A DNA stretch of 23,400 bases from a virus: positions 1-23,400 of the IMG/VR virus record IMGVR_UViG_3300047443_000049; one strand, given 5' to 3'. Below are positions 5,806-22,057 of the stretch, one piece after another; within the stretch, counting starts at the first letter, position 1, and every line of letters begins with the position of its first letter. The notes below the pieces were generated by a model. That model worked only from the letters and a program-made list of their open reading frames with translations. It ran no database searches and was not told the origin of the DNA. Both the position numbers and the translations under genes were made by a program.

Positions 5806-7367
5806 TGCCTCTGCCCGCGAGCGGCACCCCGTGGCCGCCCACCGACCCCTGCGTACAGACCGCGCTGGCCGACTGGGACGCCTGGTACTCCGCCGACCCC
5901 GACCAGCTCGAACAGCGCTACCTCAACCGCGGCTCTCAGGGCCTCCCCGAGAACCGCCCCACCCAGTACCGGGGCGGCCTCGTCGGTCGCGTCGCTCGCT
6001 GGTTCTGGGGCAACCCCGTCCCGGACGGCCAGAAGCGCGAGAAGCTCCACATCCCGCTGGCCGGAGACATCGCCCGCACCTCCAGCGACCTGCTGTTCTC
6101 CGAGCCGCCCAAGCTGGTCGTCGACAACAAGGACACCCAGACGCGCCTTGATGAGCTGGTCGACGGCGGCCTACACCCGACGCTCCTGGAGGCCGGCGAA
6201 GTCTGCGCGGCCCTCGGCGGCTCGTACCTGCGCGTGGTGTGGGACGACCAGGTCGCCGACCGCCCGTGGGTCAGCACCGTGGGCGCCGACGCCGCCGCGC
6301 CTGAGTTCGCGTACGGCAAGCTGCGCGCGGTCACCTTCTGGACCGTGGTCCGTGTCGACGGCCGCGAGGTCTGGCGGCACCTGGAGCGCCACGAGCGCGG
6401 CTTCATCCTCAACGGCCTCTACAAAGGCGGCCCAAGCGACCTCGGCAAGCAGATGCCGCTCGACGCGCACCCGGACACCCGGGGCCTGCGCGACATCATG
6501 GACACCAAGGCGCCGAAGAACCTCACCGCGTCGTACGTGCCCAACGTCCGCCCGGCCCGCGCCTGGCGGAACATCCCGGCCGCCGCCTACTGGGGACAGT
6601 CCGACTACCAGGGCATCGAGGGCATCATGGACGCCCTCGACGAGACGTACAGCTCGTGGATGCGGGACGTGCAGAACGGCAAGGGCCGCATCATCGTCGC
6701 GGACTCCCTGCTCCGGTCCAACGGGCCTGGACAGGGTGCCTCCTGGGACGAGGACCGTCGCATCTACTCGGGCCTCAACATGCTCCCTCGCGCAGGCGAC
6801 CCCAACCCGATCACGTCGGTCCAGTTCGAGATCCGCGTCGCCGAGCACCGCGACACCTGCCGGGAGCTGGTCGAGCAGGCCGTACGGCAGGCTGGCTACT
6901 CGGCGAGCACGTTCGGCGAGACCGGCGATGGCGCGGCGATCACCGCGACCGAGATCCGGGCACGGGAGCGGCGCAGCATGGCCACCCGCGCCCGCAAGGC
7001 CCTGTACTGGGGGCCTGGCATCGCCGACATCGTCGCGGCGCAGCTCGCTGTCGAGCAGGGCCTGTTCGGCGTCTCCGGGCTGGACCTGACTCCGCCGTCG
7101 GTGGAGTTCCAGGACTCCATCAGCGACGGGCCCGCCGAGATCGCCGCGACCGCTGCCCTGCTCCGGCAGGCCGAGGCGGCGTCCACGGAGACGCTCGTAC
7201 GGATGAGGAACCCCGACTGGGACGACGCCCAGGTCAAGGCCGAGGTCACTGCGATCAACAGCGAGTCCGGCCGGGCCGTGGCCGACCCCACCCAGACCGG
7301 AGCGGAGGGCGGCGGGCATGCCGGTTTCCCCAGCGATGGCGGAGGACCTGGCAGCGGAGGTCCGTGA
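5805..7367 (+). CDS. Portal protein (SPP1 gp6-like)
   Basis: This is the dodecameric portal through which DNA enters and leaves the capsid (520 residues). Typical features include the early helical segment with WYSADPDQLEQRY (27-39), and KLHIPLAGDIARTSSDLLFSE at 80-100 followed by the clip/stem region. The hallmark GDGAAITATEIRARERRS (374-391) precedes long helices (392-420). The C-terminus is Gly-rich (500-520). The ATG overlaps the terL stop, with GGAGGTGG at 5790-5797 as ribosome site; the frame is open for 14 codons upstream but that lies inside terL. The last 50 bases overlap the next gene. Function follows from motif and position. Confidence 0.95.
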   Translation: MPLPASGTPWPPTDPCVQTALADWDAWYSADPDQLEQRYLNRGSQGLPENRPTQYRGGLVGRVARWFWGNPVPDGQKREKLHIPLAGDIARTSSDLLFSEPPKLVVDNKDTQTRLDELVDGGLHPTLLEAGEVCAALGGSYLRVVWDDQVADRPWVSTVGADAAAPEFAYGKLRAVTFWTVVRVDGREVWRHLERHERGFILNGLYKGGPSDLGKQMPLDAHPDTRGLRDIMDTKAPKNLTASYVPNVRPARAWRNIPAAAYWGQSDYQGIEGIMDALDETYSSWMRDVQNGKGRIIVADSLLRSNGPGQGASWDEDRRIYSGLNMLPRAGDPNPITSVQFEIRVAEHRDTCRELVEQAVRQAGYSASTFGETGDGAAITATEIRARERRSMATRARKALYWGPGIADIVAAQLAVEQGLFGVSGLDLTPPSVEFQDSISDGPAEIAATAALLRQAEAASTETLVRMRNPDWDDAQVKAEVTAINSESGRAVADPTQTGAEGGGHAGFPSDGGGPGSGGP

Positions 7368-12882: not shown

Positions 12883-13350
12883 ATGTCGACGCCCACCCCG
12901 GAGACCGCCCTTGCCCGCAGGTGGCGGATGGAGTTCAACATGGGCTCCGTCTCCAGCCCGGACTGGCAGCTGTACCCGGCCGTCACGAACTTCAACTACG
13001 AGACGCCGCCCAACATCGAGGACTCCAGCACCTACGACGATGGCGGATGGGCCGACAACACCAAGACGGGCCAGTCCTGGAGTGTGACGATCACCCACAA
13101 CCGGAAGGCCACGACCGACGCCACCGCCTACCACCCCGTGCACGAGGCCGCCCGCGCCGCATCCCTGGCCTTCGGCGCCGCGTCCGAGGTCGGTGTCCGG
13201 TGGATGGACCGCGACGGCCTCCCCGAGGCCTACCAGGGCATCGCGCTGGTCACGTGGGCCCCGGCGGGCGGTGAGCGCACCGCGCTGGACAAGGTCGCGG
13301 TGACCTTCACGGGCAAGGGCGTCCTCGCACAGATCGACAACCCGCTGTAA
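12883..13350 (+). CDS. Major tail tube protein
   Basis: The 155-residue protein is the repeating subunit of the tail tube. It has the expected beta-rich pattern: RRWRMEFNMGS, YPAVTNFNYETPPNIEDSST, the loop YDDGGWADNTKTG and the strand QSWSVTITHNRKA. The C-terminal strands are YQGIALVTWAPAGGE and DKVAVTFTGKGVLAQI. AAGGAG at 12867-12872 lies ten bases upstream, slightly far. A nearer ATG at 12875 is out of frame. The stop overlaps the next ATG (TAATG). Position between tail terminator and chaperones supports the call. Confidence 0.9.
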   Translation: MSTPTPETALARRWRMEFNMGSVSSPDWQLYPAVTNFNYETPPNIEDSSTYDDGGWADNTKTGQSWSVTITHNRKATTDATAYHPVHEAARAASLAFGAASEVGVRWMDRDGLPEAYQGIALVTWAPAGGERTALDKVAVTFTGKGVLAQIDNPL

Positions 13351-13850
13351 TGGCGATCCGTTTCGAGGCGCTGGAAGACCTCTTCGACGATGCGCTGGAG
13401 CTTCCCGTCGGCGGCAAGACCTACCGCATTCCGTCGCCGTCGGCCGAGGACGGCCTCAGGGTCCAGACGATCACCACCCTCGCCGCCCGGCTCCTTTCCG
13501 GCGGCGAGGCCATCGACACCGAGGCCCTGGACGACGACGAGGAACGCGACCTGTTCCAGCTGTCGCTCGGCCCGGTCTACGACGAGCTGCTCAAGGCTGG
13601 CGTTTCCTTCTCCGTCCTCCGCCACGTCGGCCTGACCGCCATGTTCTGGATCACCAACGGCGTCGAGACCGCCCAGACCTACTGGAAGGCGGCTGGAGAC
13701 CCTTCTCTCCTGGCCCCGAATCGGGAAGCGCGTCGCAAGGCCAAGAAGAGTGGATCGGCCGCGGCGAGCAAGACCCGGTCACGGGGCTCTGGGAGTGGTA
13801 CGAGCGCCCCGCGGGCTACCGCGAGCGCCCGCAAGGCCGCGAAGACCTGA
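13350..13850 (+). CDS. Tail assembly chaperone, short form (gpG-like)
   Basis: This is the 166-residue product of the upstream frame. Residues 1-125 fold as the usual helical chaperone (RFEALEDLFDDALELPVGGK, RVQTITTLAARLLSGGEAID, RHVGLTAMFWITNGVETAQ). The remainder is a Lys/Ser/Arg-rich tail (127-166) that looks like an unstructured run-out. The protein binds the tape measure during tail assembly and is not in the virion. ATG overlaps the tube gene stop. The longer form made by frameshifting is listed separately. Confidence 0.88.
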   Translation: MAIRFEALEDLFDDALELPVGGKTYRIPSPSAEDGLRVQTITTLAARLLSGGEAIDTEALDDDEERDLFQLSLGPVYDELLKAGVSFSVLRHVGLTAMFWITNGVETAQTYWKAAGDPSLLAPNREARRKAKKSGSAAASKTRSRGSGSGTSAPRATASARKAAKT

Positions 13851-14041
13851 CCTGGGCCGCACTGCTGGAGCAGTGGCCGCTCATCGAGGCAGACCTCCAC
13901 TCGGTCTATGGCATCGACGTCGGGACCGCAGGGCTGCTCCAGGAGCGCTCGTGGCGCTGGCTCCGGCTGCGCATCCTCGGCCTGCTCTCCGTCGAGTCAC
14001 GTCTGAGCCGCCACTTCGCACCCCCACCAGCCAAGCCATAG
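13350..14041 (+). CDS. Tail assembly chaperone, -1 frameshift form (gpGT-like)
   Basis: A second frame, -1 relative to the first, encodes the conserved tail EDLTWAALLEQWPLIEADLH followed by YGIDVGTAGLL and RSWRWLRLRILGLLSVESRL, ending at TAG 14039-14041. That downstream frame has no ATG, GTG or TTG from at least 13382 onward, so it cannot easily be started on its own. A -1 frameshift within the end of the first gene, as in lambda G/GT and most siphoviruses, is the standard explanation. The shift must occur before the 13848-13850 stop, probably between about 13690 and 13790. I found no classical XXXYYYZ heptamer; CCT TCT at 13697-13702 and GCC CCG at 13709-13714 are weak candidates. Confidence 0.75.
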
Positions 14042-14053
14042 GAGGGGGTCCGG

Positions 14054-17000
14054 ATGTCCCTGACCATCGGCGAACTCGTCGGCTACGTCCGGGCGGACGA
14101 CTCCCAGTTCCAGCGCGTCCTCACCCAGGACGAACTCCGCATGCGGGGCTTCCAGCGCGACATCGACGGAAGACTCCGCGACCTGCGCGGCCGGTTCGTG
14201 TCCGAGGGCCGCGGCATGGGCCAAGGGCTCAGGGAAGGCACCCGCGAGAGCGGCCGACTGCACACCTCGCTGGGCCGTCTCGGCGGTATGGCGGGTGCGC
14301 TCGGTGGCGTGGTGGCGCAGGGCGCGCTGATGGCGGCCAAGTTGGGCGCTGCTGTGCCGGTTGCGGCTGGGCTGGCGGCTGCGCTGGCGAACATTGCGCC
14401 GGCGGCGGCGGTCGGCGCGACTGCGGTGTTCGCGCTGGCGCAGGCTGTGGCCGCCATCAAGATCGGCACATCGGGCGTCGGTAGCGCACTGTCGGCCGCT
14501 TTCGCCCCGGCCACCGGCGGCGGAGGTGGTGGCGGCGGGGGTGGTGCGGCGAAGCAGCATGCGAACGCCCTCAGGCAGCTCCGGGACGCGCAGGAGCAGG
14601 CGGCGCTCGCCAACCAGCGGGCGGCCCGTGCCACCGAGGACGCTGAGCGGAATCTCACCGACGCCCAGAAGGCCGCCCGGAAGGCACAGCAGGACCTGAC
14701 GGCCGCGCGCAAGGAGGCCGCGCGCGAGCTGGAGGACATGAACAACCAGCTCAAGGACGCCAAGCTTGACGAACGCCAGGCCGTGCTGGACGTCCAGGAC
14801 GCTGAGGCAGAGCTGGCCAAGGTCCGCGCCTCCAACAGCAACGCCTCGGATGAGGAGATCGCCAAGGCACAGCTCGGCTACGACCAGGCTGTTCAGGCCC
14901 TGGCGGAGCAGCGGACCGAGACCATGCGCCTCCAGTCCGACACCGACGCCGCGAACAAGGCTGGGGTCGGCGGCTCCAAGACGGTCGTGGACGCGCAGCA
15001 GCAGGTCTCGGACGCCAACCGCGACGTCAGCGATGCCGTACGGGCCCTCAAGGACGCGCAGGCGGAGCAGGCCCGCACGGCGAAGGAGGGCCTGGAGAAC
15101 GTCAAGCGCGCCCAGGAAGGCCTCACCGAGGCGGTTGGCGGCTCGACGGGCGGCGTCAACAAGCTCAACGACGCCATGTCCAAGCTCAGCCCGAGCGCCC
15201 GAGCGTTCGTGCGCGAGGTCATCGCCCTCAAGCCCGCCTGGGACGCCCTGAAACTCGACGTCCAGGAGGCGCTCTTCAAGGGCCTGGCGGGTGAGCTGCA
15301 CAGGACCGCGGGCTCCGTGCTGCCGGTGCTCCGTAAGAACCTCGTCGACTCCGCCCGCGCCCTCAACGACATGGCCAAGGGCGTGACCGGCGCGGCGCGG
15401 GAGATGGCCGAAGACGGCACCCTCGGCAAGGCGATGCACTCCGCATCGAAGGGCCTGCACAACCTCAGCGGCATCCCCGGCATCACGGTGAAGGCGCTGA
15501 CGCAGATCGCGGCGGCCGCCGGCCCGTCCTTCGAGAAGCTCACGGAGGCCGCGGGCAAGGGCGCGGAGAAGATCGGGAAGAAGCTCGACAAGGCATTCGC
15601 GTCCGGCGCGATGCAGAAGGCAATCGAGCACGCCATCGACCTGATCGGTGACCTCGTCGACATCGTGGGCAACGTCGCCAAGATCCTCGGCAGCGTCTTC
15701 GATGCGGCTGAGGTGTCCGGCGGCGGGTTCATCGGCGTCCTCAAGACCGTCAGCGGGCAGCTCGCGAAGACCTTCGCGTCCAAGCCGGTCCAGGACGGCC
15801 TCAAGGCCCTGTTCGAGACCATGGCCACGCTCGGGAAGACCGTGGCTCCGCTGCTTGACCAGGCGCTTCGGGCGCTCGGCCCGGTGCTGGCGGCGCTGGG
15901 GCCTCCCGCTCAGGTTCTGATCGAGGCGCTTGGGAAGGCGCTCCAGCCGATCATCAAGGCTCTCGGCCCGATCCTGGCCGACCTCGCGGGCGCGGTGGGC
16001 GACGTGGTGCTGGCGTTCATCCCGCTCTTGCCCGTCGTCTCGGATCTGATCGTCACGGCCCTCACGCCGCTCTCGCCGCTGATCAAGAAGATCAGCGAGG
16101 TTTTCATCAAGATTGCCCCCACGGTCGTCAAGCTCGCCGACAAGCTCGACACCGTCCTCACCCCGGTGATGATGGGCCTGGTCGACGTCGTCGTGCAGTT
16201 CGTCGAGCAGTCCGGTGACCAGCTCCTCCAGCTGCTGCCCGACCTCATGAAGGCCGCCTCCGACTCCGCGCCCGCGTTCGTGGAACTCGGCAAGTCGGTG
16301 GGCAAGATCCTGACGCAGCTCGCCCCACTGCTGCCCCAGATCACCACGCTCGCCGTGACGATGGCGCTCCAGCTGCTGCCCGCGCTGCTGCCGCTGATGA
16401 AGCCGTTGACAGAACTGGCGGTGCTCTTCATCAAGCTGGAAACGGCCGTGCTGGTCCACGCCATCGGTGCTCTTACCACCCTGGTCGGCTGGTTCAAGGG
16501 ACTGCGGGAAATGCTCAAGCCCGCAGTGGACGCGGTGCACTGGCTCACCACGAAGATCAGCGACGCGTTCGAGTGGCTGTCCGATCACCTCGTCGGCCAC
16601 TCCGTCATCCCCGACATGGTCAGGTCCATCGTGGCGTGGTTCGCGGGGCTGCCCGGCAAGGCCTGGAACGCCCTGTCGAGCTTCGCTTCGCGGATCGCCG
16701 GGCGGGCCTCGGACGCCGGCGCGGCCATGCTGCGGGAGATCCGCTCCAAGCTCAGCAGCGCAGTCTCCGCCATCAGGGGGCTGCCCGGCCGGGCGAAGGA
16801 CGCCCTCGGCGACCTCGGGAACGTCCTCTACCGCTCCGGGCGGGCCCTCATCCGAGGGTTCGTCAACGGCATCAAGTCCATGGGCAGCATCGTCGCCGAC
16901 GCAGCCTCGGCCCTGGTGGACAAGGCCGCGGACTTCTTCCCACACTCCCCGGCCAAGAAGGGCGCCTTCTCTGGGAAGGGCTGGACGCTGCACTCCGGCC

Positions 17001-17317
17001 AGGCCGTTGCTCAGGCCATGGCGGCCGGTATGCGCATGCAGGAGTCGGAGGTCAGCCGCGCCGCCCGGTCCCTGGCGGCGAGCGCCCAGCAGGGCATCGC
17101 GGGCGCGGACTCGCCGTTGGCCAGCCTCGTCACGTCCCCGGGCAACGCAGGCGGGGGCGCGCCGGCGGGCGCGGCGTCGGGCTCGGGCGGGGTCGTCAAG
17201 GGCGAAGTGAAGGTTGTGGTCGACGTACGTGGCGGCCAGGACAAGTTCGTCCAGTGGCTGCGCGAAACCATCGGCTCTGGTGGCGGCGGCGACGTGCAGT
17301 TCTTCCTCGGATCCTGA
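14054..17317 (+). CDS. Tape measure protein
   Basis: This 1087-residue protein sets tail length and travels with the DNA at injection. At about 1.5 angstrom per residue this suggests a tail near 160 nm, an inference. The N-terminus (1-75) begins MSLTIGELVGYVRADDSQFQ. Residues about 80-150 are Gly/Ala-rich and hydrophobic. A run of glycines (about 155-166) then leads to a long coiled coil (about 168-360) rich in Ala, Gln, Lys and Glu. Mostly helical, partly hydrophobic segments follow (about 560-800). Near the C-terminus PHSPAKKGAFSGKGW is the usual end-of-repeat motif. No lysozyme or peptidase motif is evident. GGAGGGGG at 14041-14048 is the ribosome site. Confidence 0.95.
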   Translation: MSLTIGELVGYVRADDSQFQRVLTQDELRMRGFQRDIDGRLRDLRGRFVSEGRGMGQGLREGTRESGRLHTSLGRLGGMAGALGGVVAQGALMAAKLGAAVPVAAGLAAALANIAPAAAVGATAVFALAQAVAAIKIGTSGVGSALSAAFAPATGGGGGGGGGGAAKQHANALRQLRDAQEQAALANQRAARATEDAERNLTDAQKAARKAQQDLTAARKEAARELEDMNNQLKDAKLDERQAVLDVQDAEAELAKVRASNSNASDEEIAKAQLGYDQAVQALAEQRTETMRLQSDTDAANKAGVGGSKTVVDAQQQVSDANRDVSDAVRALKDAQAEQARTAKEGLENVKRAQEGLTEAVGGSTGGVNKLNDAMSKLSPSARAFVREVIALKPAWDALKLDVQEALFKGLAGELHRTAGSVLPVLRKNLVDSARALNDMAKGVTGAAREMAEDGTLGKAMHSASKGLHNLSGIPGITVKALTQIAAAAGPSFEKLTEAAGKGAEKIGKKLDKAFASGAMQKAIEHAIDLIGDLVDIVGNVAKILGSVFDAAEVSGGGFIGVLKTVSGQLAKTFASKPVQDGLKALFETMATLGKTVAPLLDQALRALGPVLAALGPPAQVLIEALGKALQPIIKALGPILADLAGAVGDVVLAFIPLLPVVSDLIVTALTPLSPLIKKISEVFIKIAPTVVKLADKLDTVLTPVMMGLVDVVVQFVEQSGDQLLQLLPDLMKAASDSAPAFVELGKSVGKILTQLAPLLPQITTLAVTMALQLLPALLPLMKPLTELAVLFIKLETAVLVHAIGALTTLVGWFKGLREMLKPAVDAVHWLTTKISDAFEWLSDHLVGHSVIPDMVRSIVAWFAGLPGKAWNALSSFASRIAGRASDAGAAMLREIRSKLSSAVSAIRGLPGRAKDALGDLGNVLYRSGRALIRGFVNGIKSMGSIVADAASALVDKAADFFPHSPAKKGAFSGKGWTLHSGQAVAQAMAAGMRMQESEVSRAARSLAASAQQGIAGADSPLASLVTSPGNAGGGAPAGAASGSGGVVKGEVKVVVDVRGGQDKFVQWLRETIGSGGGGDVQFFLGS

Positions 17318-17329
17318 CAGGAGGCGCAG

Positions 17330-20300
17330 ATGGCGTTCCCGACTGACCCGCTGGGCACCCTGGTAGAGATCAAGCCCGGGAGCACGTGGACCGACATCAC
17401 CGCGGACGTGAAGCTGTCGGATCGGATCACGATCACGCGCGGGCGCGCCACCGAGCGCGCCCGCGTGGACGCCTCCAAGTGCACGCTCACCCTCAACAAC
17501 AAGGACGGCAAGTACTCGCCCAGGAACCCCCTGAGCACCCTCTACGGCACCATCGGCCGCAACACCCCCATCCGCATCAGCGTCATGGCCGGACCGGTGG
17601 CCCTGGACCTGCCAGGCGCCAAGGTCGGCGTCGCGGGCGGCTACGCCACCACCCCCGACAACGCCGCCCTCGACATCACCGGCGACCTCGACATCCGCTT
17701 CGACGCGACGCTCACGAACTGGATCACCTCCGGAGCCGGGGCCTCGACCGAGTTGTGCGGCAAGTTCAACTTCACCGGCGGCTCGAAGAGCTGGATCCTC
17801 ATGGTCCGCGACGGCGCCCTCCGCCTCGAATGGTCGGTCGACGGCACCAACATCCTGTCGGCGACCTCCACCGTCGACATCGCCGTACCCGCGCACGGGC
17901 ACCTGGCCGTACGCGCCACCCTCGACGTCAACAACGGCGCCAGCGGCAACACGACCACCTTCTACACCTCGGACTCCATCACCGGCACCTGGACCCAGCT
18001 CGGCAACGCCATCGTGCAATCCGGCACCACCAGCATCTTCAACTCGACCGCGGCCCTCGAAGTCGGCACCGTCAGCACCCTCGGATTCCAGGTCTGCGCG
18101 GGCCGCGTCCACAAGTTCGAGCTGCGCAACGGCATCGCCGGGACCGTGGTCGCGAACCCCGACTTCACCGCGCAGGCGAGCGGTACGACCAGCTTCACCG
18201 ACTCGGCCGGCCGAACCTGGTCCAAGGCGGGCAACGCGAGCATCACGAACCGGCAGACGAGGTTCTCGGGCGAGGTGCCCGCGTGGCCGACCCGGCGCGG
18301 GCCGTCCGGCCAGGACGCTTACGTGTCCCTGGAAGCCGCGGGCATTCAGCGGCGCCTTATGCAGGGCACCAAGCCGCTGGACAGCGCGCTACGCCGCCGG
18401 ATCCCCTCCGGCAGTCCGCTGGCCTACTGGCCCATGGAGGATGGCCAGGACTCCACCCAGGCGTATTCCCCGACGGTGGGCGTACGCGCCATGAAGACCA
18501 CAGGAATCAACTTCGGCGCCGACGACACCCTGCCCGGGTCATCGGCGCTGCCGACGCTGCCCGCTGGGTCGATTGTGAGCGGCGCCGTACCGGCAGGCAG
18601 CGGTGGCGGCTGGCATGTCGAGATGGTCTACAAGCTCGCGAGCGTCCCGGCCTCCCTGACGACGTTCTTCCAGGTGTACCTGTCCGGTTCCACCGTCCGC
18701 CGCGTCATGGTGCGCCTGAGCACGACCGCCATCAGGATCGAGCTCCGCGACAGCGACGACGCGGTACTGGCCACCACCGATAACACCGACGCCACCGCGA
18801 TCAGCGACTTCACCGGCGGCTGGAGCAGGCTCCAAATCTTCTCCACCGACGCCGGAGGAGGCGTCGCCGACTTCACAGCCCGATGGATCAAGATCGGGGG
18901 GACCTCCACCTGGTCCGCAGTAGCCTCCTCCCTTGGGACCGGCAACGTCACCATCGCCACCACCAACCTGGTGTCCGCGTCCTACGACGGCTTCTCACTC
19001 GGCCACATCGCCGCTTTCGACACCACCAGCACCCTCGTCTACAACAACGCCGACCATGGGTTCAACGGCGAAACCACAGGCACCCGCATGGCGAGGCTCG
19101 CCAGCGAACAGGCCCTGCCTGTCACCGTGTATGGCGATCTCACGACCCAGGAACTGGTCGGTCCGCAGCGCCCCGACGTGCTCCTCACGCTGCTCCAGGA
19201 CGCCGCCGACGTGGACGGCGGGATCCTCTACGAGCCGCGCGAGACGACCTCGCTGGCCTACCGCGACCGCGCCGGCCTGGAAAACCAGGCGATCGCTCTC
19301 GCCCTGGACCGCCTCGCCTACGGCCACATTGCGCCCCCTTTCACGCCGGAGCCGGATGACCAAACCGTCCGCAACGACATCACCGTCACCCGCGTGGGCG
19401 GCTCCAGCGGCCGGGCCACACTCGACACCGGCGCCCTGTCCACGCTGGAGCCGCCGAACGGAGTCGGCCTCTACGACGACGCGGTCACCCTCAACTTGTA
19501 CGACGACACCCGGCCCGAGCAACAGGCGTCTTGGCGCCTGCACCTGAGCACCTGGGATGAGGACCGGGTCCCGGCCGTCAGCCTGCGACTCCACAAGGCC
19601 ACCGACCTAATCCCCGCGGCGTTGCTGCTCGACATCGGGGACCGGTGGACCGTCGCCAACCCCGGCCTCGACTTCGCCCCGGGCGGCCTGGACCTGCTCC
19701 TCCAGGGCCAGAAGGAAGTACTGGGGGTCCGCACCTGGACCATGGACCTCACCGGCTCACCCGCCGCCCCCTGGAACGTCGCCCACGTCGACGACGCAAC
19801 GTACGGGTGGACGGACACCGAAGTGAGCGCCCTGGCCGCGTCCTACACCTCGACGGCCACCGCGATCAGCGTGGCCACCACCAGTGGCCCCCCGTGGACC
19901 ACCGACCACAGCGACACCCCGTTTGAACTGCGTGTCAGCGGCGAGGACATGACCGTCGTCAGCATCGGCACCGTCGTCAACCTCGCCGACGACCCCCTGC
20001 TGCTGGCCGGAACTATCAGCGGCTGGTCCGGCTCCAACTCGGCGATCACCTACGACACCACCATCATCAACACCGCACACGGCGCCGACGCCTCGATCAA
20101 GTGCGTGCCCAACGGCAGCTCGGCGTCCGGCGGCGTCAACTCGGCGGTGCACAGCCCGGTCGCCTCCGTCACCGCGGGCGCCTCGTACACCGTGTGCGGC
20201 TGGGTGTACTCGCCGCTGGGCTGGTCGGATCTGCGGACCGCCGTCGACTGGTACGACGCGTCCAACGTGTTCATCTCGTCGTCGACCGGCTCCGCAACGG

Positions 20301-20569
20301 TGGTGCCCGCTGCCACCTGGACGTTCCTGACGCAGACGTTTACCGCGCCCGCGCTGGCATCCCGCGCCACTACCCGCGGCCGGTGGGGCAGCACCCCTGC
20401 GGCTACGGACATCTCGTACTGGTGGGCCCTGCGCCTCATCGCTGACGCCAGCGTGTCGACGACCAGCCCGCAGACCATGACCGTCGTCCGCTCCCGCAAC
20501 AACGTCGTCAAAGCACAGGCAAGCGGCGCGGCCGACAGTCTCGCCCACCCTGCCTACGTTGCCCTGTAG
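17330..20569 (+). CDS. Large modular minor tail protein with LamG-like and CBM-like modules
   Basis: This 1079-residue baseplate/tip protein is probably involved in host recognition. Residues 1-90 resemble the start of actinophage minor tail proteins (ITRGRATERARVDASKCTLT, GKYSPRNPLSTLYG). Residues about 100-275 form a concanavalin/LamG-like module (PDNAALDITGDLDIRFDATL). A second such module spans about 362-572 (SPLAYWPMEDGQ to DGFSLGHIAAFD). Residues 580-850 hold the conserved hub-like segment (VGPQRPDVLLTLLQDAADVD, GGILYEPRE). Residues about 884-1042 look like a CBM_4_9-type jelly roll (NLADDPLLLAGTISGWSG, SYTVCGWVYSP) inserted between SGEDMTVVSIG and PQTMTVVRSRNNVVKA, which are normally adjacent. 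AGGAGG is at 17319-17324. Sugar binding is inferred. Confidence 0.88.
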   Translation: MAFPTDPLGTLVEIKPGSTWTDITADVKLSDRITITRGRATERARVDASKCTLTLNNKDGKYSPRNPLSTLYGTIGRNTPIRISVMAGPVALDLPGAKVGVAGGYATTPDNAALDITGDLDIRFDATLTNWITSGAGASTELCGKFNFTGGSKSWILMVRDGALRLEWSVDGTNILSATSTVDIAVPAHGHLAVRATLDVNNGASGNTTTFYTSDSITGTWTQLGNAIVQSGTTSIFNSTAALEVGTVSTLGFQVCAGRVHKFELRNGIAGTVVANPDFTAQASGTTSFTDSAGRTWSKAGNASITNRQTRFSGEVPAWPTRRGPSGQDAYVSLEAAGIQRRLMQGTKPLDSALRRRIPSGSPLAYWPMEDGQDSTQAYSPTVGVRAMKTTGINFGADDTLPGSSALPTLPAGSIVSGAVPAGSGGGWHVEMVYKLASVPASLTTFFQVYLSGSTVRRVMVRLSTTAIRIELRDSDDAVLATTDNTDATAISDFTGGWSRLQIFSTDAGGGVADFTARWIKIGGTSTWSAVASSLGTGNVTIATTNLVSASYDGFSLGHIAAFDTTSTLVYNNADHGFNGETTGTRMARLASEQALPVTVYGDLTTQELVGPQRPDVLLTLLQDAADVDGGILYEPRETTSLAYRDRAGLENQAIALALDRLAYGHIAPPFTPEPDDQTVRNDITVTRVGGSSGRATLDTGALSTLEPPNGVGLYDDAVTLNLYDDTRPEQQASWRLHLSTWDEDRVPAVSLRLHKATDLIPAALLLDIGDRWTVANPGLDFAPGGLDLLLQGQKEVLGVRTWTMDLTGSPAAPWNVAHVDDATYGWTDTEVSALAASYTSTATAISVATTSGPPWTTDHSDTPFELRVSGEDMTVVSIGTVVNLADDPLLLAGTISGWSGSNSAITYDTTIINTAHGADASIKCVPNGSSASGGVNSAVHSPVASVTAGASYTVCGWVYSPLGWSDLRTAVDWYDASNVFISSSTGSATVVPAATWTFLTQTFTAPALASRATTRGRWGSTPAATDISYWWALRLIADASVSTTSPQTMTVVRSRNNVVKAQASGAADSLAHPAYVAL

Positions 20570-20577
20570 GAGGCACG

Positions 20578-21072
20578 ATGCCCTGGCTCGCCGGGATGAA
20601 AATCACCGCACAGCGGCTGATCGACTTCACTCCCCACACCGTGGAGTACCAATCCCTGACGGCCAACGCCACCGCGGTGACCACAACGGAGACCGTGGCA
20701 CTCACCACCGGATCCGTCGTGTTCGAGACCGGCCGGGCGTACCGGTTCACCATCAAAGGCTTGTACCAGTCCAGCGTCGCCGCGGACCAGGTGCAGGTCC
20801 GCATCCGCAAGACCAACACCTTGGGCACCACCTACGTCGACTCGTTCCGCCTGTACTGCCCGGCGGCCGGCGGCAACACGGCGTTCTACCTCAGCAACAT
20901 CGGCGTCAACACGTCGGGAGCCGACATCACCGCCGTCGTGGTCGGCACCTACGTCCGGTCTGCCGGCACCGGGAACGTGCTGATCGCCGCGAGCGCGACC
21001 AACCCGGCCTACATCGAGGTCGAGGACATCGGCGACGCCTCTGACTTCTCCGGCGCCACCGCCATCACCTGA
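20578..21072 (+). CDS. Small beta-rich minor tail protein
   Basis: This is a 164-residue protein with an N-terminal stretch PWLAGMKITAQRLIDFTP, typical of small Streptomyces phage tail or fibre proteins. A beta-sandwich-like body follows (TVALTTGSVVFETGRAYRFT, DQVQVRIRKTNTLGTTYV, NVLIAASATNPAYIEVEDIG). There are no membrane segments or catalytic motifs. AGGAGG at 20568-20573 overlaps the previous stop codon, giving tight coupling to the large tail protein. A T-tract terminator follows its stop. It probably sits at the tail tip, but this is inferred from position and composition. Confidence 0.8.
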   Translation: MPWLAGMKITAQRLIDFTPHTVEYQSLTANATAVTTTETVALTTGSVVFETGRAYRFTIKGLYQSSVAADQVQVRIRKTNTLGTTYVDSFRLYCPAAGGNTAFYLSNIGVNTSGADITAVVVGTYVRSAGTGNVLIAASATNPAYIEVEDIGDASDFSGATAIT

Positions 21073-21136: not shown

Positions 21137-22057
21137 ATGGCCACCCCCTTGACCGCAGACGCCCTCGTCGCCGCTCTCGAAGGCGAAGGCCTGACCGTCC
21201 ACGAGCACGCTGGTTGGCGCACCCACAACCGGGAGAAGGCCACCGGCAAGGGCTTCGGCCCCGTCTACGGCGTCCTGATGCACCACACCGCTGGCCACGG
21301 CGACAAGGAGCTGTGCTTCAACGGCCGCTCCGACCTCCCCGGGCCGCTGTGCCACTCCTGGCTGGGACAGACCGAGGGCCTGTGGATGATCGGCCACGGC
21401 CGCACCAACCACGCGGGCCTGGTCGACCCCGACGTCATCGCCGCCCTGCGCGCCGAGGCCTCCGTGCTGCCGAAGGACGACAAGGCCGACGCCGACGGCA
21501 ACGACGTCCTCTACGGCATCGAGATCGAGAACTACGGCACCGGCAAGGACCCGTACCCGGACGCCCAGTACGCGCAGGCGGTGCTGTGGGCGGCCGCGAT
21601 CTGCCGGGCACACGGCTGGTCGGAGAAGAGCGTCGCCGGGCACAAGGAAGTCCAGCCCGGGAAGATCGACCCCTCGTTCGACATGGACGTCTTCCGGGCG
21701 GACGTCAAGAAGCAGCTCGCCAAGACCGTAGGCAAGCCCGTCAGCGCCCCGGTCGCCGCGACGCCCACCGTCGACTTGTCCCGGCTGGTCAACGCGGCCA
21801 AGAAGGACCCGAAGGCGAGCCAGGGCCATGTCACCTACCGGGCCGGGGTCAACCTTGTCGAGGCCGCGCTCCTGGAGCTGCGGTACCTCAGCAAGGACTT
21901 CGCCGGGGACGGCTCCTTCGGCAGCCGCACCGTCGAGGCGTACGCGGCCTGGCAGCGGCACCTCGGCTACACCGGCAAGGCCGCCGACGGCATCCCCGGC
22001 CGCGTCTCCCTCGGCAAGCTCGGCGCCCGCACCGGCCTGTTCACGGTGGTCGCATGA
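21137..22057 (+). CDS. Endolysin: N-acetylmuramoyl-L-alanine amidase with C-terminal binding domain
   Basis: This 306-residue enzyme cuts the amide bond between muramic acid and the peptide of the cell wall at lysis. Residues about 20-195 are an Amidase_2/PGRP domain with likely zinc ligands in VLMHHTAG (H49 or H50), VAGHKEVQPG (H169) and KIDPSF (D178), plus GIEIENYG (127-134). A Pro/Ala linker (198-212) leads to a peptidoglycan-binding-like helical domain (about 215-300; FAGDGSFGSRTVEAYAAWQR). There is no signal peptide, so export needs the holin. GAGGAGGG at 21126-21133 is the ribosome site. The stop overlaps the next ATG (ATGA). Confidence 0.95.
   Translation: MATPLTADALVAALEGEGLTVHEHAGWRTHNREKATGKGFGPVYGVLMHHTAGHGDKELCFNGRSDLPGPLCHSWLGQTEGLWMIGHGRTNHAGLVDPDVIAALRAEASVLPKDDKADADGNDVLYGIEIENYGTGKDPYPDAQYAQAVLWAAAICRAHGWSEKSVAGHKEVQPGKIDPSFDMDVFRADVKKQLAKTVGKPVSAPVAATPTVDLSRLVNAAKKDPKASQGHVTYRAGVNLVEAALLELRYLSKDFAGDGSFGSRTVEAYAAWQRHLGYTGKAADGIPGRVSLGKLGARTGLFTVVA

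Follow-up and report, generated by a model that had tools for sequence, protein, structure and literature searches.

Receptor recognition in Streptomyces phages is poorly understood, and one tail gene of the window, the whole 23.4-kb stretch of an IMG/VR viral record analysed here, raises the question of whether the segment separating two strands of its C-terminal domain is an integral part of that domain or an inserted module with a role in recognition. The original prediction, made from the sequence alone, had described the segment as a carbohydrate-binding-like jelly roll nested inside the C-terminal fold of a minor tail protein. In our view, the segment is likely to be an adhesin module with a CBM_4/9/16/22-like jelly roll, seated in an exchangeable socket of a baseplate hub, where the socket would be a beta-hairpin turn in the small C-terminal domain.

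The carrier protein and its genome setting

The source phage is of the Streptomyces type, and the genes of the window run in the order terminase, portal, head, major tail protein, tail assembly chaperone, tape measure, hub, a 164-aa protein, and endolysin (Table 1). In the relative Eklok, the complete genome lists the tail genes as major tail, chaperones, tape measure, hub, a 110-aa protein, and endolysin, with no further annotated tail-fibre gene. No separate Dit gene is recognisable between the major tail protein and the hub, either in the window (12883-20569) or in Eklok. The tape measure, the hub, and one small protein seem to make up the tail tip, and these small siphophages seem to have no other large tail-tip protein than the hub. 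The 164-aa protein (20578-21072), located between the hub and the endolysin, shows only a weak match to PHROG 24062 and is a candidate tail-tip accessory.

The hub is matched by PHROG 5313 over residues 1-884 (E value of 2e-251, 838 bits), and its C-terminal domain has so far been just a part of this PHROG of unknown function. The match stops at residue 884 because the family profile lacks the module at the position that we name slot B, and the C-terminal core in its empty form corresponds to about the last 110 positions of the profile. Apart from PHROG 5313 and 24476, no named domain was found in the empty core with Pfam and PHROG, or in the whole protein with NCBIfam.

The full-length AlphaFold2 model of the hub is of moderate confidence (pLDDT of 65 overall). 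The core of the model matches baseplate hubs with Z-scores of 16-18 and an rmsd of about 3.3-4 for about 250 residues spread over residues 7-815, the matched hubs being the eCIS hub of PVC (PDB ID 6j0m), the MuSo2 43-kDa tail protein (PDB ID 3cdd), and the baseplate proteins of A-1(L), P1, and 7-7-1. The structural matches listed for the carrier are of the hub type with no Dit among them, which is no proof against a Dit. Two LamG/concanavalin-like domains are predicted to interrupt the core, and on the model the hub-type match together with these interruptions identifies the carrier as a gp27/Tal-like baseplate hub with inserts and not as a generic minor tail protein. The first LamG domain is an optional insert, being missing in three relatives (L024, L025, and L043) and replaced by another module class in two (L028 and L076), and the second is found in 13 of the 13 hubs of the underlying alignment (A1). 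Together with the C-terminal module, the model thus places three sugar-binding-like units in one chain, as had been anticipated.

Table 1. Features of the hub region, with positions in the window, strand, and the evidence for each assignment
Feature	Position	Strand	Evidence
Tape measure protein	14054..17317	+	PHROG tape measure families
Predicted baseplate hub (gp27/Tal-like) with three glycan-binding-like modules, 1,079 aa	17330..20569	+	Single ORF, PHROG 5313, model matches; adjoins tape measure gene in tail operon
Hub core segment 1 (residues about 7-87)	17348..17590	+	Structural match, conserved in homologues
LamG/pentraxin-like module 1 (residues about 88-307)	17591..18250	+	Z 14-18 to pentraxin and LamG chains
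Hub core segment 2 (residues about 308-360)	18251..18409	+	Structural match, conserved in homologues
LamG-like module 2 (residues about 361-579)	18410..19066	+	Single-domain match 361-579, Z 13.8
Hub core segment 3 (residues about 580-815)	19067..19774	+	Structural match, conserved in homologues
Slot 0, empty here, before DTxGS	19781..19816	+	145-148 aa module in phiSASD1, L065, L076
Small C-terminal beta domain, first half (residues 829-879)	19814..19966	+	Conserved in empty homologues, C-terminal model
Slot A, empty here, before PFDxxxGGE	19901..19915	+	96-174 aa fillings in Eklok group, Dubu, L017, L049, L064
Slot B, predicted CBM_4/9/16/22-like jelly-roll module (residues 880-1045)	19967..20464	+	Gap versus empty homologues, fold, DNA exchange
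Small C-terminal beta domain, second half (residues 1046-1079)	20465..20566	+	Conserved in empty homologues
Endolysin, Amidase_2 with PG-binding-like end	21137..22057	+	Pfam and PHROG matches

The slot B insert and its predicted fold

The strand GEDMTVVSI (residues 871-879, 19940-19966) closes the first half of the C-terminal domain, and PQTMTVVRS (20468-20494) opens the second half, which ends in HPAYVAL; reading frame and coordinates place these elements as the original prediction had them. Slot B is the turn of the hairpin formed by the two strands, measuring 166 aa here versus 3-7 aa in the empty relatives, where the C-terminal domain is unbroken (GGEVMTVTAI-SGASS-PQTFTVTRSVNG...AL). The shorter homologues assumed in the original prediction turned out to be real: the segment is absent, and the turn correspondingly short, in Streptomyces phage Chymera, in two viral contigs (L019 and L028), and in 13 of 28 Streptomyces prophage hubs, so that not all aligned homologues carry it. 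A further 57 viral contigs without the insert were chosen by their best match to the empty form and are not an unbiased sample.

In the alignment of 56 sequences, the junction is sharp and both hairpin strands are kept in filled hubs (G and E before the insert; Q, R, and N after it). As far as the aligned sequences go, an insertion between intact hairpin strands, nested in another small fold as proposed, is shown, and it fits the model. The limits first given for the insert, 19979-20457, were slightly short at both ends, with an end that is not codon-aligned, and the alignment sets them at 19967-20464.

Short direct repeats are found around the module, at 19948-19960 and 20476-20488 in the window and at 6603-6615 and 7131-7143 in the related hub L014 (13 nt in L014), because the two hairpin strands share a near-identical MTV(V). 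Site-specific insertion was considered and rejected, the repeats being explained by the alike strands and not taken as a recombination site. A foreign base composition was likewise rejected, as the module does not differ in G+C content from the DNA around it.

In the full-length model, the C-terminal domain largely stayed at a pLDDT of <50, and a separate AlphaFold2 model was therefore made of the last 274 residues, using the 56 sequences. The resulting model has a mean pLDDT of 84 and a pTM of 0.82, and its jelly roll spans almost exactly the insert. Foldseek ranks CBM16 at the top, and VIA-align 2 gives CBM22 (PDB ID 2w5f; Z-score of 15.3, rmsd of 2.8, 146 residues), CBM4-2 (Z-score of 14), and CBM16 (Z-scores of 12-13), with a matched range of construct residues 75-237, or about 880-1042 of the hub, in agreement with the alignment gap. 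A profile of the module searched against PDB sequences found CBM22 2w5f (E value of 6e-4) and CBM16 3oea. The Pfam CBM_4_9 family matches 15 of 16 module relatives (E values of up to 0.1, the best being 6.7e-11), and the window copy itself stays below the curated cut-off (E value of 0.0075, 17.1 bits versus 25.9). Invariant Trp residues are present in the module. The segment is thus predicted with good confidence to be an independent beta-sandwich jelly roll, which bears out the CBM_4_9-like fold first suggested, albeit with a weak Pfam match for this copy. On the model we describe it as CBM-like and do not assign it to a CBM family: the likeness to families 4, 16, and 22 (the Pfam CBM_4_9 group) lies in the predicted fold and a weak profile similarity, whereas the identity is 11-17% and no enzyme is attached.

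Slot fillings and module exchange among relatives

Relatives were gathered from phage records, viral contigs, and 199 Streptomyces-type genomes, 34 of which gave a match. Across these relatives the C-terminal domain varies in length at three positions, slots 0, A, and B, and the fillings form six clusters: a CBM_4_9-like class (n = 17), a LamG-like class of about 200 aa (n = 19), the EDFED class (n = 4), an Eklok-group class (n = 3), a class of unknown type (n = 2), and a single filling of 96 aa. The CBM class is seen in slots A and B, and the EDFED class is seen in slots 0 and A. Slot B can be filled in tandem, with two modules in Dagobah, Dryad, and L052 and three in L061. The insert is not peculiar to the window phage; of the 28 sampled Streptomyces prophage hubs whose end is complete, 15, or about half, have slot B filled. 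Judged by sequence, slot B behaves like an interchangeable fitting, because related phages have it empty or with different modules, and this fitting probably tunes which bacterial surfaces the phage adheres to.

Two hubs (L071 and L072) hold in slot B a filling of about 208 aa that is unrelated to the other module classes. In L018 (3839-6724), the hub ORF ends early inside a LamG-like slot B filling, owing to a stop or frameshift that is possibly a sequencing error.

The window module shares 93% and 92% DNA identity with the modules of L014 and L015, compared with 57% for the hubs; at third codon positions the values are 89% and 87% for the module and 55% for the hub. The module is not intrinsically slow, since in the comparison of the window with L013 nucleotide identity amounts to 88% for the hub and 94% for the module. 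A DNA identity of 92-93%, third positions included, in hubs that are 57% identical points to a recent exchange of the module. Similarity to L014 goes up close to where the C-terminal domain begins and is highest across the module, and this domain was probably exchanged along with the module. A conflict between hub and module topologies was dropped as proof of exchange, as the AU test does not reject the window, L013, L014, and L015 as one clade of the hub tree (p of 0.61); for this reason, the argument rests on the difference in divergence, including that at third positions.

On a tree of the hub segment (66 rows), slot B occupancy requires 22 changes, whereas shuffled labels need 22.2 on average and 16 at least, so that occupancy carries no phylogenetic signal, and slot content requires 24 changes versus 27.3 when shuffled; these counts are approximate because many deep forks of the hub tree are weakly supported. 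The alignments and identities show that modules are gained, lost, and exchanged among phages by recombination, which gives rapid modular evolution stronger support than the single chain behind the original prediction could: fillings differ, several slots are used, and module DNA has been exchanged recently.

One contig, L027 (2-757; window 20125-20306), switches inside the module from L013-like to window-like, with 35 and then more than 1,000 diagnostic sites, and matches the window at nearly 100% downstream of the switch. It was rejected as proof of a crossover and is suggestive only, since the two parents hardly differ over the roughly 150 bp in which the switch falls and a chimera of metagenome assembly is possible.

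A broader reading, which we regard as slightly more probable than not, makes the C-terminal domain a multi-slot platform that Streptomyces phages use specifically for docking unrelated adhesin modules, be they CBM-like, LamG-like, or of other kinds. Its hairpin turn and two nearby loops would take up one module or several in tandem, and the phages would trade them by recombination within the module or close to it, at such a pace that hub ancestry is no longer reflected in slot content. If true, this would be a natural plug-in system for retuning host adsorption with the hub unchanged.

Possible function and relation to known systems

Because the insertion keeps both hairpin strands intact, the hub could fold, and would be expected to assemble, whether the socket is empty, holds a module, or has been given another one. 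By analogy with gp27/Tal homologues, the hub would be a trimer at the tail tip, and each virion would then carry the module in triplicate, next to its LamG domains. Displayed around the tip, the modules may bind actinobacterial surface glycans weakly but multivalently, aiding adsorption before DNA ejection, and exchanging the module may alter surface specificity or host preference with the hub untouched. Carbohydrate binding by the module and an effect on host range are both what we infer. A jelly roll fold may also serve structural roles, which counts against an adhesive function. As the hub looks like the sole large tail-tip protein, exchangeable modules are natural candidates for host-range determinants, and the socket offers a clean experimental design, since naturally empty, single, and tandem hubs are directly comparable.

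The module might instead bind environmental polysaccharides such as chitin, cellulose, or plant and fungal glycans, holding virions near the host mycelium and not at the host wall. Plant polymers are the ligands of CBM22, CBM4, and CBM16, its neighbours in structure, and the isolated relatives with a stated source come from soil. This explanation is nevertheless unlikely, because a ligand cannot be predicted from likeness of fold within the jelly-roll superfamily, because the tail-tip hub that carries the module is the part in contact with the host, and because the nearest relatives that the module has in Streptomyces genomes are likewise phage-tail-like proteins. A purely structural module, packing against hub or accessory subunits or shielding the tip with no sugar binding, would agree with the sub-threshold Pfam score of the window copy; its frequent absence, its replacement by unrelated modules, and the use of multiple slots are hard to reconcile with a required packing, and we find this reading still a little less credible. 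That the segment is integral to an ancestral domain and was lost repeatedly, with no insertion event, is very improbable: change counts on the tree cannot tell gain from loss, but the reading is largely refuted by the unrelated module classes filling the same turn, and the module has a complete predicted fold of its own and the conserved core runs uninterrupted in many viral contigs.

The proposed adhesin module in a hub socket comes nearest to the "evolved Dit/Tal" type of baseplate protein, whose CBMs, carried in Dit and Tal loops, bind the host (PMC7291167). Evolved Tal proteins of streptococcal and other siphophages are gp27-like hubs encoded in the tape measure region with inserted carbohydrate-binding-like domains (PMC7291167), and the window hub resembles them in all these respects, its first LamG module likewise interrupting the gp27-like core. 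In contrast, the CBM-like module lies outside the gp27-like domain, in the small C-terminal domain after residue 815, at a hairpin turn that is one of three slots with varied modules; moreover, the relatives infect Streptomyces and no separate Dit gene is recognised. Evolved Dit proteins of Lactobacillus, Lactococcus, and Streptococcus phages also carry CBMs in loops of a baseplate protein, some of which were shown to bind the host and aid adsorption (PMC7291167, PMC10688798), but the carrier there is the Dit galectin domain and not a hub C-terminal domain. With the present hub, the concept of evolved Dit and Tal proteins reaches beyond lactic acid bacterial phages to actinophages. An excess of domain mosaicism has been described for tail proteins (PMC10684548), and in the literature covered, which is incomplete, we found no description of this hub domain or its slots.

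Among actinophages, recombinant CBM-like domains of the mycobacteriophage Douge fibre gp20 and of BppU bind the mycobacterial host surface (PMC13033339). These are also tail-tip proteins with CBM-like folds, and the gp20 structure matches the slot B module with a Z-score of 13.4, but they are separate fibre and baseplate proteins, whereas the window module is inserted into the hub. CBM_4_9-like modules further occur in prophage tail-like proteins of Streptomyces genomes (L160, L161, L162, L163, and L166), where three are arranged in tandem N-terminal to an uncharacterised tail-like domain.
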